Below, one piece after another: positions 14,914-19,427 of a DNA stretch of 29,988 bases. Both the position numbers and the translations under genes were made by a program. The notes under the pieces were generated by a model. That model saw nothing but the letters and a program-made list of their open reading frames with translations. It did not search any database and was not told the DNA's origin. The stretch is from Pseudonocardia autotrophica (GTDB taxonomy: Bacteria > Actinomycetota > Actinomycetes > Mycobacteriales > Pseudonocardiaceae). Positions within the stretch are counted from its first letter, which is position 1; each line of letters opens with the position of its first letter. Where the stretch lies: positions 1-29,988 of the forward strand of contig NZ_JNYD01000048.1 in assembly GCF_000717175.1 (NCBI RefSeq). The letters are read 5' to 3'.

Positions 14914-16678
14914 GTGTCCGTGAGGTCCTTCGTCGCGCGGCTGCCGCTCGCCCGGCGGGCGAAGCGGGCGGCGGCGTCGGCCGGCGTGCTCGTCTCCGAG
15001 ATCCGCGCCGTCGCGCTGGCGGCGTGGCGCCGCTCGCTGCAGCTGCGCGTCGTCGTCTCGACCCTCGCCCTGTCCACCGCGGTCTCGCTCGTCCTGGGCC
15101 TGGTGCTGCAGACCCAGATCGCGGACCGGCTGCTGCAGGGCAAGTTCGACGCGGCCATCGCGCAGGCCGAGTCCGCGCGCGTGATCTCCGAACGGGACCT
15201 GTCCGGCGTCGATCCCGACCGGGAGGGCGCGCAGGGGACGCTGAACAACGCCCTGGACCAGCTCACCAACCAGTCCACGGCCGACGCGGCGGGCGCACCC
15301 ACGGCGGGGGAGTTCCGCGCCGCGCTGACCACGGGCACCGGGAGCGGCCCGGAGATCTCGGCGGGCAACCTCGACGACGTCTCGCCCGAGCAGCGGCAGA
15401 CCGTCGCGAACGGCGCCCTGTCCACGCAGTACACCACCGTGGACGGCATCCCGACGCTGGTCGTGGGCCAGCCGGTGCGCACCGCCGGACGCGAGCTGCA
15501 GCTGTACCTGATGTTCCCGCTCGACGCGGAGCAGCGGACCCTCGGCCTGGTCCAGAGCACCCTGATCGTCGGTGGGCTGGTGCTGATCCTGCTGCTCGCC
15601 GGCATCGCGAGCCTGGTCACCCGGCAGGTGGTGCGGCCCGTCCGGCAGGCCGCCGAGGTGGCCGAGCGGTTCGCCGAGGGACATCTCGACGAACGCATGC
15701 CCGTGCACGGCGAGGACGAGGTCGCGCGGCTGTTCGAGTCGTACAACGAGATGGCGAGCAGCATCCAGACCCAGATCCGCCAGCTCGAGGAGTTCGGCGC
15801 CCTGCAGCGCCGGTTCACGTCGGACGTCAGCCACGAGCTGCGCACGCCGCTCACCACCGTGCGCATGGCCGCGGACATCCTCTACGCCTCCCGGGACGAG
15901 CTGCTCCCGGCGCTGCGCCGCAGCTCGGAGCTTCTGGTCACCGAGCTGGACCGGTTCGAGACGCTGCTCGGCGACCTGCTGGAGATCTCCCGGCTCGACG
16001 CGGGCGTGGCCGAGCTGGGCACCGACCGGCTGGACATGCGGCACGTCGTCTCCCGGGCGGTGGAGGCGGTCCGCGGGCTGGCGGAGGAGTCGGGCACGTC
16101 ACTGGTCCTCGACCTCCCCGGGGACGTCTATGCCGAGGTCGACTCGCGGCGGGTCGAGCGGATCGTGCGCAACCTCGTCGCCAACGCGATCGACCACGGC
16201 GAGGGCCGGCCGGTGCACGTCACCCTGGCCGGCGACGAGCACGCCGTCGCCGTGGTGGTCCGCGACCACGGCGTCGGACTGCGGCCGGGCGAGGCCGGGC
16301 TGGTGTTCAACCGCTTCTGGCGCGCCGAGGAGTCCCGGGCGCGGCGCAGCGGTGGCAGCGGGCTGGGCCTGTCCGATCAGCCTGGAGGACGCCCGGCTGC
16401 ACGGCGGCTGGCTGCAGGCGTGGGGCGAGCCGGGCCGCGGCTCGGCCTTCCGGCTGACCCTGCCCCGCACCGAGGGGGACCTGCTCGAATCCAGCCCGCT
16501 GCCGCTGCAGCCCGAGGGCGACGACCCGGACACCGGGCACCCGCTCCCGGCGTCGGTTCCCACCCCGCCGTGGGGCACGCCGATCCCGACCGAGCTGCGC
16601 GACGGGGGGTCCGCGGCGGGCGACGACGCCGTCGAGCCCGCCGAACCGGCCGTCCTGGACCCGCGGGGGGACCGGTGA
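14914..16678 (+). CDS. mtrB: Sensor histidine kinase MtrB, interrupted by an apparent +1 frameshift
   Basis: Partner kinase of MtrA. From GTG 14914: transmembrane helix ~45-68, an extracellular domain to ~208, a second helix ~212-236, HAMP ~240-290, phosphoacceptor His307 in SDVSHELRTP, the N-box RIVRNLVANAIDHG, and the G-boxes DHGVGL and GGSGLGLS. At about 16372-16375 (TCCG, codon 487) the frame breaks: removing one C restores SISLEDARLHGG...GSAFRLTLP, the normal MtrB C-terminus, ending at TGA 16676-16678. As written, translation from the start instead enters another open frame that reads into lpqB. Either the gene is truly mutated or the assembly has an extra base. The conserved sequence on both sides argues for a recent event or an error. 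Confidence 0.88.
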
Positions 16679-18399
16679 CCCGCCGGCTGCTGCTGATCCT
16701 GGCCGCGCTGCTCGCCCTGGCCACCGGGTGCGCGAGCGTGCCCGGCGAGTCGTCGGTGCAGGTCCTGCGCAAGGTCACGGAGGGTGACTCCCCGGACATC
16801 CCGGCCGGGCCGGTCGAGGGCACCAACCCCCTCGACCTGGTCCGCGGCTTCGTCTACGCCTCGGGCAGCACGGTGGACAGGCACGGGGCGGCCCGCCGGT
16901 TCCTCACCCAGGAGGCCTCGCAGGGCTGGGACGACGGCGACTCCCTGACCGTGCTCGACGAGCAGTTCGACACCGTCTACCCGCCCACGAGCAGCACCGA
17001 TCCCGACACCGCGACCGTGCGCATCCGCGGCGACCGGGTCGGCTCGCTCGACCCGCTCGGCGCCTTCGAGCCCGCGGAGGCGCCCGTGGAGATCGACGTG
17101 ACGGTCCGCCGCGCCGACGGGCAGTGGCGGATCGACCGGCTCCCGGCCGGCGTGCTCGTGCGGCTCTCGGACTTCCGCACCAACTTCCGCACCGTGAAGG
17201 GGTACTTCGTCGACCCCGCCCGGCGGGCGACCGTCGCCGACCTGCGGTACCTCCCGGCGGTGCCCGCGCAGGCGCTGCCGTCGCGGACCGTCGACATGCT
17301 GCTGACCGGCCCGTCGCCCGCGCTGCAGGACGCCGCGGAGTCCGTCGTGCCGCCGTCGGCCCGGCTGCGCACCAACGTCACCGAGTCCCCGGACGGAGCG
17401 CTGATCGTCGACCTCACGCAGGTCGGCGACCTCGACGAGGCCCGCCGCCGCCTCATCGCGGCGCAGTTCGTGCAGACCCTCGCCGAGATCAACGTCCCGC
17501 GGGTGCGGCTGCTCGTCGACGGCGCGCCGCTCCTGGCCGGCAGGCCCGACCTCACGGCCGACGACGTCGCCGGGGCCGGCGCCTCGGTGCAGCCCGGTGC
17601 GGACGTCCCCGCCCTGGTCGTGACGGGTGGCCGCGTGCGGGCGCTGCCCGGCGGCGAGCCGCTCAACGGACAGGCGGGCAACGGGTCCTTCGACATCGCG
17701 TCGGCCGCGACCACCCCGGACGGCGCCCGCATCGCCGCGGTCGCCCGGGACGGCGGGCGGGTGCGGCTGCTGGTCGGGCCCACGGACGGGATGCTGGAGG
17801 CGGTGTCGCTGTCCGGCTCGTCGCTGTCCCGGCCGACCTGGACCCCGACCGGCGGCGAGGTGTGGACGGTGCTGGGCGGCGGCCCGGGCGCGGTCGTCGC
17901 GCGGGTCACCGTGGACCAGACCGGGGTGGTGCGGACCGGGCAGGTCAACGTCTCCGCGCTCACCGCGCTGGGCCCGCTCACCGATCTGCGGTTGTCGCGC
18001 GACGGCATGCGGGTCGCCGCGGTCGTCGACGGCGGCCTGGTCACCGGGGCGGTCGTGCGAGCGGCGGACGGCGACGTCGCGGTGCGCAACGTCCGGCGGC
18101 TGCGCCCGTCGGACCTCTCCGACGTCGTCGGCGTGGACTGGCGGGCGGACGAGTCGCTCATCGTGGTCACGGCCCGGTCGGACCGCCCGGTGTCGCTCGT
18201 GTCGTCCGACGGGCTGACCCTGCAGCTGGTGCCGGGCAGCAACCTGACCCCGCCACTCAAGGCCGTGACCGCCGCGTCGAGCCGACCGTTCCTGGTCGCG
18301 GACCAGGGCGGGATCTGGAGCTACGACGGCGGCGAGCTCGACAGCTGGCGGCAGGTGCTCGGCGCGGCGCCGGACGGGGTGCCGCTCTACCCGGGCTGA
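16675..18399 (+). CDS. lpqB: Lipoprotein LpqB (MtrB accessory, GerMN and beta-propeller domains)
   Basis: A 574-residue secreted lipoprotein. The signal peptide is RRLLLILAALLALATGC, with the lipobox LATGC placing lipidated Cys at residue 19. A GerMN-type domain occupies the middle (VDMLLTGPSPALQDA ... VRLLVDGAPL) and an LpqB-type propeller domain the C-terminal half (TPDGARIAAVARDGGRVRLLV and similar strands). In mycobacteria and Streptomyces LpqB is encoded after mtrB and modulates MtrB activity from outside the membrane. GTG 16675 overlaps the restored mtrB stop (16676-16678), indicating translational coupling. Because of the mtrB frameshift, this frame is also continuous with the mtrB start. 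A short ACCCGG/CCGGGT hairpin (18389-18406) spans its stop codon. Confidence 0.94.
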   Translation: MTRRLLLILAALLALATGCASVPGESSVQVLRKVTEGDSPDIPAGPVEGTNPLDLVRGFVYASGSTVDRHGAARRFLTQEASQGWDDGDSLTVLDEQFDTVYPPTSSTDPDTATVRIRGDRVGSLDPLGAFEPAEAPVEIDVTVRRADGQWRIDRLPAGVLVRLSDFRTNFRTVKGYFVDPARRATVADLRYLPAVPAQALPSRTVDMLLTGPSPALQDAAESVVPPSARLRTNVTESPDGALIVDLTQVGDLDEARRRLIAAQFVQTLAEINVPRVRLLVDGAPLLAGRPDLTADDVAGAGASVQPGADVPALVVTGGRVRALPGGEPLNGQAGNGSFDIASAATTPDGARIAAVARDGGRVRLLVGPTDGMLEAVSLSGSSLSRPTWTPTGGEVWTVLGGGPGAVVARVTVDQTGVVRTGQVNVSALTALGPLTDLRLSRDGMRVAAVVDGGLVTGAVVRAADGDVAVRNVRRLRPSDLSDVVGVDWRADESLIVVTARSDRPVSLVSSDGLTLQLVPGSNLTPPLKAVTAASSRPFLVADQGGIWSYDGGELDSWRQVLGAAPDGVPLYPG

Positions 18400-18427
18400 G
18401 CCGGGTCGGTTCCCCGCAGGACCGCCG

Positions 18428-18508
18428 CGTGGACGACTGTGTGGATGACTGTGTGGACGACTGTGTGGACGACGTCGGAGCTCGGGGCGAGGCCGGATTT
18501 GTGGACAA
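18428..18508 (-). promoter_or_regulatory. Cluster of DnaA-box-like 9-mers, 12 bp apart
   Basis: Read on the minus strand, the actinobacterial DnaA-box pattern TTGTCCACA and close variants occur at 18500-18508 (exact), 18464-18472 and 18452-18460 (TCGTCCACA), 18440-18448 (TCATCCACA) and 18428-18436 (one further mismatch, TCGTCCACG). All have the same orientation. The first four are exactly 12 bp apart and the fifth is 36 bp on, three times that period. They form the tandem 12-mer GTGGACGACTGT at 18429-18476. The site is in the lpqB-comF gap. It could titrate DnaA or make comF responsive to it; binding is inferred. Confidence 0.55.
18429..18476. repeat. Four tandem 12-bp units (GTGGACGACTGT)
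   Basis: Units at 18429, 18441, 18453 and 18465; the second has one change and the last is degenerate at its end. The array is in frame with comF and would read VDDC repeats if translation began at GTG 18429, but I consider it non-coding because no ribosome-binding site precedes it and the ComF fold starts much later. Confidence 0.85.
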
Positions 18509-18569
18509 TCCGGCCCGTGCGCCCCGATCCGGGGCGGGGCCGTCGGTGCGGACGGTCAGGGTGGGGGGC

Positions 18570-19427
18570 ATGGCTCGCCCCGTCATCCCGCACCGGCCCG
18601 GACCGATCCCGGATCCGGCCCCGCACCTGTCTCCGCGCCGGTCTCCGCACCTGCTCCTCGCCGGCCTGCTCGACCTGCTGCTGCCCGGCTCGTGCGGGGG
18701 CTGCGGCGCGGGCGGGGCGGGCTGGTGCCCGGAGTGCACCGCGCGGTTGCCGGACCCGCACCGCGTCGTCCTGCCCGAGGCGCCGGAGATCCTCGCCGTC
18801 GGCCGGTACCGCGGGCCGCTGCGCACCGCCCTGCTCGCCTACAAGGAGCGGGGCCGCCGCGACCTGGCCGCGCCGTTGGCGGCGGTGCTCGCCCCGCTCG
18901 TACCGCCCGGCGCGCTCCTCGTGCCCGCGCCCTCGCGGCCCGCGGCGGCCCGGGCGCGCGGCGGCGACCACGTGCTGCGGCTGTGCCGGCGGATCGCGCC
19001 CGGGCGGACCCTCCGGCTGCTCGGGCTGGCCCGCCGGACCCGGGACTCCCTCGGGCTCGACGCCGCGGGGCGGGCCGCGAACCTCGCCGGGCGGGTGTTC
19101 GTGCGGTCGCCGGAGAACCCACCCGATGCGGTGGTGCTCGTCGACGACGTGGTGACCACCGGGGCCACGCTCCGTGCCTGCGCACGGGCCCTGGCGGAGG
19201 TCGGGATCGGGGTCGCGGGGGCGGTCGTGCTGTGCGACGCGAGCAGCCGTACGGACCGCCGGCACCGGGTGGGCGGGGCCTCGCCGCAGGCCCGCGCAAC
19301 CCCACCACGATACGTGTTTGCGCAGGTCAGGGAAAGAGAATCCACCGATTTCGCCCGGTTCGGCGTCACTCGTCGCTCAGGACTGTTGCCAAAGCGTGAT
19401 GCGCACTACCGTGCCTGGCACACGTAA
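18570..19427 (+). CDS. ComF-family phosphoribosyltransferase-like protein
   Basis: A 285-residue protein of the ComF/amidophosphoribosyltransferase-like family. The N-terminus has a zinc-ribbon-like four-cysteine set (CGGC at 42-45 and CPEC at 53-56). The C-terminal domain carries the PRPP-binding motif VVLVDDVVTTGAT (188-200). In naturally competent bacteria ComF is needed for DNA uptake; in actinobacteria the role is unknown. It occupies the same position as mycobacterial Rv3242c, between lpqB and hpf. ATG 18570 follows a GGGGGG stretch; upstream GTGs are possible. The last ~60 residues extend beyond the domain and overlap what is probably the hpf promoter, with lower GC. Confidence 0.85.
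   Translation: MARPVIPHRPGPIPDPAPHLSPRRSPHLLLAGLLDLLLPGSCGGCGAGGAGWCPECTARLPDPHRVVLPEAPEILAVGRYRGPLRTALLAYKERGRRDLAAPLAAVLAPLVPPGALLVPAPSRPAAARARGGDHVLRLCRRIAPGRTLRLLGLARRTRDSLGLDAAGRAANLAGRVFVRSPENPPDAVVLVDDVVTTGATLRACARALAEVGIGVAGAVVLCDASSRTDRRHRVGGASPQARATPPRYVFAQVRERESTDFARFGVTRRSGLLPKRDAHYRAWHT

Follow-up and report, generated by a model that had tools for sequence, protein, structure and literature searches.

A conserved DnaA-type box, phased to the comF promoter of Pseudonocardia autotrophica, lies beside a recent tandem repeat

The gap between lpqB and comF of Pseudonocardia autotrophica contains a DnaA-type box that is real and conserved. The original prediction described a phased cluster of five DnaA-box-like sites; what it had picked up is a tandem repeat of recent date and, next to it, a single site of activator type that is conserved, helically phased, and a member of a wider promoter class. 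The box, the core promoter next to it, their conservation and phasing, and their recurrence at other genes are read directly from the sequence of a 29,988-nucleotide stretch, here called the window, and of related genomes. All five sites were found again where they had been placed, in a single orientation and with start-to-start spacings of 12, 12, 12, and 36 bp. The neighboring genes named in the prediction are upheld by domain matches, with LpqB (PF10647, Germane) detected in the frame ending at 18399 and a phosphoribosyltransferase domain in the comF frame. The features are as follows, in window coordinates.

18428-18436, minus strand: degenerate box TCGTCCACG, unit of the 12-bp array
18440-18448, minus strand: degenerate box TCATCCACA, unit of the 12-bp array
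18452-18460 and 18464-18472, minus strand: two degenerate boxes TCGTCCACA, units of the 12-bp array
18428-18473, minus strand: tandem array of 12-bp units with the degenerate boxes, 3 bp separating adjacent 9-mers
18491-18515, unstranded: perfect 9-bp inverted repeat GGCCGGATT/AATCCGGCC, its 7-nt loop being the box core
18500-18508, minus strand: exact DnaA-type box TTGTCCACA (plus strand TGTGGACAA), conserved, upstream of the comF promoter
18541-18548, plus strand: CGTCGGTG, -26-type element, 7/8 match to the RecA-NDp (PafBC-type) consensus
18557-18562, plus strand: CAGGGT, -10-like hexamer, 8 nt past the -26 element and 7 nt ahead of the comF ATG
18570-19427, plus strand: comF frame, ATG at 18570, probably leaderless

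The exact TTGTCCACA at 18500-18508 agrees with the DnaA-box consensus. A genome-wide count, as proposed with the original prediction, establishes that the exact box is a rare word, because TTRTCCACA occurs 36 times in the 8.02-Mb genome, against nine copies of the reversed word; 33 of the copies are exact TTGTCCACA, the total rising to 36 once TTATCCACA is added. Within the window there are six matches to TTGTCCACA with at most one mismatch, compared with a mean of 1.79 after shuffling, and six or more were reached in 4 of 100 shuffles. No Rfam RNA family matches anywhere in the window. The genes mtrB and lpqB read here as a single 1161-aa frame (14914-18399). A frameshift near amino acid 490, either a sequencing error or real, is likelier than a genuine mtrB-lpqB fusion, because the MtrB C terminus diverges after GSGLGL from what we take to be its usual sequence.

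To follow the box across relatives, a DNA search with positions 18300-18760 was run in 60 genomes and gave 30 loci, 29 of them in the genus of the window, its own locus included. The exact TGTGGACAA lies on the plus strand of the gap in 20 of these 29 congeneric loci, a comparison made without seven of the 35 congeners (G008, G010, G011, G021, G028, G031, and G034), which returned no such locus. It is absent from the other nine, four of which (L042, L045, L050, and L054) show no comF match in the sequence retrieved: L043 carries the exact box reversed together with a degenerate forward box, L048, L050, L059, and L066 have degenerate boxes only, and L042, L045, L054, and L063 are boxless. As genomes of the genus hold 9 to 42 exact boxes each (40 genomes), one within a gap of a few hundred base pairs is unexpected by chance. 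Outside the genus, the exact box appears only at L095 and L098 and a degenerate one at L092 (29 non-own loci, 23 with comF beside lpqB).

The box tracks comF, not lpqB. Its distance from the lpqB stop varies from 13 to 263 bp over 20 loci, whereas its distance to a conserved ComF codon stays between 75 and 106 bp in 17 of 19 loci (75, 85, five at 86, 93, 96, 97, two at 98, three at 105, and two at 106). The two outliers, at 166 and 177 bp, are the window and G030, in which the start lies farther from the conserved codon; the G030 comF ortholog matches the ComF family TIGR00201 with an E value of 2.8e-7, under the curated cut-off. With the distance to lpqB variable and that to comF kept, linkage of the box to lpqB is rejected, and the proposed tie to the mtrAB-lpqB system finds no support.

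Spacing to the comF promoter is quantized. Measured between the first bases of the box and the -10 hexamer, the distance is 35-36 bp at 3 loci, 46-47 bp at 9, and 57-58 bp at 11, which corresponds to a Rayleigh R of 0.97 at a 10.5-bp period over 23 loci, with the best-scoring -10 hexamer and start taken at each and three degenerate-box loci (L043, L048, and L059) included. Seven loci fall outside this set: the four without comF, the boxless L063, L066 with its unphased degenerate box, and L067, which belongs to another family. Because the comF loci are related, changes of spacing class were counted on a quick LpqB tree, and at least three are needed, each of about one helical turn. The box thus holds the conserved position anticipated for a DnaA-regulated promoter. 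What relatives share in this gap is the single exact box and its phase to the comF promoter, but not the number of array units.

The promoter on which the box is phased resembles a known type. Aligned with TGTCRGTG-N8-TANNNT, the window core reads CGTCGGTG-N8-CAGGGT, with seven of eight -26 positions matched and a -10 that keeps the A and T and replaces the first T by C; the RecA-NDp consensus is given as tTGTCRgtg-8 nt-TannnT in the available text of PMC5656591. Judged by sequence, the comF core resembles a RecA-NDp/PafBC DNA damage promoter with a leaderless start, and comF is probably leaderless. In several congeners the comF core is degenerate, with a similar geometry kept. At PafBC promoters the PafB helix-turn-helix (HTH) engages the -26 motif and the PafC HTH contacts SigA domain 4, as described in the accessible part of PMC11804915. 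The likeness to this promoter class extends to recA and other repair genes, where TGTCRGTG-N8-NANNNT or something near it is also found, and the following start, where present, is mostly 6-7 nt past the -10. The difference is the upstream DnaA-type box, phased in steps of about one turn, which is not described in the available portions of PMC5656591 and PMC11804915. DnaA goes unmentioned in the main text of the PafBC papers PMC11804915, PMC5656591, and PMC6789036, and the open-licence literature returned no paper joining PafBC with "DnaA box," nothing joining comF, lpqB, and DnaA, nothing on Rv3242c with DNA damage and mitomycin, and nothing matching DnaA boxes at repair genes by ChIP-seq. In the genome itself, RecA-NDp-like matches are mostly boxless: of 30 examined among 67, one is preceded by an exact box at 80 bp or less.

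The combination of box and core recurs well beyond comF. The pattern TGTGGACAA-N8..38-GTCGGTG-N8-NANNNT was found 36 times, in 23 of the 62 congeneric genomes (a same-species pair is included, so three loci are counted twice), compared with none for the reversed control and one when the box is replaced by TGTCGACAA, a control word of the same composition. Total lengths of the forward matches in the genus are 42, 51-54, and 62-64 bp, with singles at 47 and 57 bp. In the opposite orientation, nine of the 62 genomes have one match each, all at 53-56 bp. Among 249 genomes of the order, 28 contain forward matches (74 in total; control, 0) and 28 contain opposite-orientation matches (62 in total, of which G252 has 26; control, 0); of the opposite-orientation matches listed, most measure 53-56 or 64-66 bp, two measure 44 bp, and one 68 bp. 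A scan of named genomes yielded at least 116 stretches, and the 80 stretches listed include Amycolatopsis, Actinokineospora, Kibdelosporangium, Streptomyces, Curtobacterium, Rhodococcus, and others. Found order-wide and in named genomes, the arrangement is not a genus-specific accident.

The raw order-wide counts were set aside as evidence of phasing, as the matches in G252, G153, G264, and G060 are often orphan repeats with a common 3' piece. Because some matches represent one repeated element, the counts were reduced to 26 gene-linked forward values, one per gene family and spacing class, several of the genes being without a family match. These give an R of 0.83 at 10.5 bp, and none of 20,000 uniform random sets did as well at periods of 9-13 bp.

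The repeats themselves are interspersed elements of about 75-85 bp that comprise a phased box, a RecA-NDp-like core, a -10, and, in most of them, a similar start such as GGATACCGGGGGCCGGAGGC or TGAAACCGGGGGTCCCCC. They occur in G252 (L394-L399 and L401-L409), G153 (L410-L417 and L419), and G264 (L420, L421, L423, L424, and L426), mostly without a leaderless gene behind them, and could be genes for small RNAs or mobile promoter repeats. Of the 26 opposite-orientation matches in G252, 17 were looked at, and one precedes a ygjP-like gene (L400).

Starts downstream of these promoters are enriched. Among 148 promoter-like stretches, 62 have an ATG or GTG 3-9 nt past the -10 that opens a frame of at least 60 amino acids, compared with 10.7% of random positions, and 56 of the 62 starts sit 6 or 7 nt past the -10. 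An analysis independent of the core took all 101 exact TTGTCCACA of G000, G009, G026, and G020 and a span of 28-89 bp from each box, a leaderless start being defined as NANNNT followed after 6-7 nt by a coding-like frame, with some starts counted from two boxes. Such starts numbered 47, whereas random positions in these loci would yield 5.1. For forward boxes, 10 of 16 starts lie within 1.5 bp of 42, 52, or 63 bp and 6 of 16 are off phase; for opposite boxes, 16 of 31 lie at 53-56 bp and 8 of 31 at 72-74 bp. Grouped across the four genomes, the box loci form three groups present in 4/4 and seven in 3/4, with lpqB-comF among the latter. By eye, L036, L110, L116, L119, L120, and L141 show pairs of opposite-orientation boxes 19-20 bp apart, the distal box 73-74 bp and the proximal about 53-54 bp before the -10 end; the proximal box is often degenerate and the distal is mostly TTGTCCACATC.

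NCBIfam and Pfam matches at box loci identify RecA, DnaB, YraN, YifB (ComM), Ssd, TadA, an error-prone polymerase, CrgA, RecQ, MazG, an Lhr-type helicase, DNA polymerase IV, RecC, a YgjP-like metallopeptidase, DUF2695, and ComF, as well as a weak AlkA-like match and a DnaN paralog; DnaA, RecF, GyrB, and the RecA of the genome itself were identified in the same way. Order-wide, box and core precede recA, recC, recQ, lhr, mazG, and the dnaN paralog. The recA promoter of P. autotrophica combines a box at 53 bp with a TGTCGGTG core and TACGGT, and the recA box is at 54 bp in G020, 53 bp in G026, and 73 bp in G009. For yraN the distance is 54 bp in G020 and 72 bp in G009. At a dinB/DNA polymerase IV gene (L284), where box and core are both present, the 48-bp distance is off phase. 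At dnaB, crgA, and the Tad operon a box is upstream or nearby. DUF2695 small proteins (L165, L180, and L172) recur in the genus behind a box and RecA-NDp-like promoter, and the first 45 residues are identical between L180 and L301 (P. halophobica). The recurrence of the box at repair genes suggests that DNA repair may be connected with chromosome replication.

The phasing is found at a second promoter class. The actinobacterial LexA operator motif is GAAC-N4-GTTC, and on this motif, which we assume to apply here, LexA-type operators are assigned at dnaE2 of G000 and at L435 (weak HNH matches). Both share the operator with LexA-controlled SOS promoters and differ from these by a box at the same phases as above, 51 bp at dnaE2 and 42 bp at L435. 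The phasing is therefore not tied to PafBC, and a PafBC-only feature is rejected; RNA polymerase would be the common partner of the phased boxes. A dnaE2-like locus of G020 (L145:2049) also combines a LexA-type operator with a box, here at 41 bp, and counts for little because the reading frame that starts at its ATG does not stay open over 284 codons.

We propose that an activator protein binds the exact box at 18500-18508, upstream of the comF promoter. Sitting on one helix face and centered about 44, 55, or 66 bp before the start depending on the species (about -66 here), it would touch RNA polymerase and perhaps PafBC as well, and would raise or gate transcription of leaderless comF mRNA from the RecA-NDp-like core. 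Activation and polymerase contact are what we infer; for the binder, the exact word, the seemingly common flank, and TTATCCACA near dnaA and recF/gyrB favor DnaA. An activator site that contacts polymerase, with DnaA as its likeliest reader, is on this sequence evidence a moderately probable account. Weighing against it are the scarcity of the box in this gap outside the genus, the nine congeneric loci without the exact forward box, the boxless majority of RecA-NDp-like matches, the off-phase distances (L066, L284, and 6 of 16 forward starts), and the use of best-scoring -10 hexamers and three degenerate boxes in the comF series. If DnaA does bind, repair, recombination, and DNA uptake genes would be tied to replication status. 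Of the two roles in the original prediction, a DnaA-regulated locus fits best.

The flank in question is C and then T or C after TGTGGACAA, present in 96% and 95% of promoter boxes (56 stretches) and in 66% and 77% of box-like words downstream of dnaA, figures uncorrected for base composition and for which the downstream count covers 148 words from 26 of 30 stretches, only three of them cut at dnaN. On these figures TGTGGACAAC[TC] would be common to promoter boxes and box-like words past dnaA in genomes of the family. Furthermore, TTGTCCACA lies upstream of dnaB, and TTATCCACA is found ahead of dnaA as well as between recF and gyrB. In the dnaA-dnaN gap of the genome itself (G000, L005:780-2020) there is no exact TTGTCCACA, just degenerate boxes such as TGGGGACAA; oriC is rejected as the home of the exact boxes, which in G000 lie outside it.

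A serious rival to DnaA, though on balance doubtful, is another sequence-specific activator at the same promoter site whose word equals the DnaA box. E. coli DnaA in vivo occupies double boxes 2-3 bp apart in 15 of 16 regions, according to the available text of PMC11317965, whereas a partner by this E. coli rule, which may not define actinobacterial sites, is present for 1 of 28 distinct core-linked boxes of the genus upstream and 0 of 28 downstream, at a background rate of 1.1%. The absence of double-box geometry at the promoter boxes slightly weakens the case for DnaA as the binder and for the wider regulon considered below. The use of both orientations with a small phase shift would suit a roughly symmetric reader, and repeated use at DNA repair genes also speaks for such an activator. 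Against it stand the exact match to the actinobacterial DnaA box, the flanks that seem common to box-like words past dnaA, and the presence of DnaA-type boxes ahead of dnaA, ahead of dnaB, and between recF and gyrB.

Known DnaA regulons offer a partial parallel. In E. coli, DnaA boxes lie ahead of replication, repair, and nucleotide genes, as far as the accessible part of PMC11317965 describes them, and a B. subtilis DnaA regulon appears in the available text of PMC11019786. The likeness is in boxes upstream of replication and repair genes; unlike the E. coli sites, those described here are mostly single, quantized with respect to the -10, associated with PafBC- or LexA-type cores, and located in Actinomycetota.

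It is improbable that the locus titrates DnaA or limits initiation in the manner of datA or DARS, with comF a bystander. Five box-like sites do fall within 81 bp, with the 12-bp spacing of DnaA double boxes, and DnaA-box clusters outside oriC are reported for S. coelicolor and B. subtilis in the available text of a review (PMC5742627). Such clusters, datA included, share with this locus several boxes close together; here, by contrast, the cluster is a recent tandem repeat, and what is conserved is a single promoter-linked box. In 18429-18473 Tandem Repeats Finder detects 3.8 copies of a 12-bp unit, GTGGACGACTGT, so that the first four sites cannot be counted as independent. No second copy of the array exists in its genome, where the next best two-unit matches carry three mismatches. 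It has four units in the species, being identical in a second strain that differs at 4 of 3001 bases, two in G030, and none in the remaining 27 congeneric loci examined; the conserved box is 36 bp, or three units, from the array in the window and G030 alike. Among the loci examined, no conservation as a cluster was found, the array being limited to its own species and, shortened, to G030, and the array as a regulatory unit is rejected, while the five-box cluster as a functional unit finds no support. Titration as a main role, which the original prediction had also offered, is at odds with this lineage specificity, with a conserved single box phased to the comF promoter (titration needs no phase), and with the recurrence of exact boxes at other promoters.

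An incidental 12-bp microsatellite beside a chance exact box, the other possibility originally raised, is still harder to accept as a whole. It may well hold for the array by itself, which consists of head-to-tail, near-identical units called as a repeat by Tandem Repeats Finder and varies in copy number among near relatives. The exact box is no part of that pattern: a word with only 9 to 42 copies per genome is present at 20 of 29 congeneric loci, and its spacing is quantized. The array was added locally and recently, and its 3-bp gaps match those within E. coli DnaA double boxes; it may supply extra DnaA binding or be neutral. That the inverted repeat is the lpqB terminator, with the box merely its loop, is hardly credible and was rejected: the 9-bp repeat is perfect, but it has no T tract, a terminator scan called no terminator-like site there, its fold is no better than that of shuffles (z = -0.36), and the repeat, not found as such in the other printed congeneric gaps, is not conserved, whereas the box is.

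If the reading of the box as a DnaA-bound activator site extends beyond comF, DnaA would be, across Actinomycetota, a position-quantized activator of a replication-linked repair, recombination, and natural transformation regulon, acting with PafBC or after LexA release; recA, comF, yraN-comM, dnaE2, recC, recQ, lhr, and others would be its members. We put this forward tentatively, as plausible and short of probable. If true, targets would follow a rule, with the first base of the box about 40-43, 51-54, or 61-64 bp from the -10 end, or 53-56 and 72-74 bp in the opposite orientation, and the persistence of a rare DnaA-type word at fixed positions outside oriC would be accounted for. The actinobacterial DNA damage response would then have a second conserved input, absent from PafBC/LexA promoter models and most likely read by the replication initiator, and the damage response and DNA uptake would both sense the state of that initiator.
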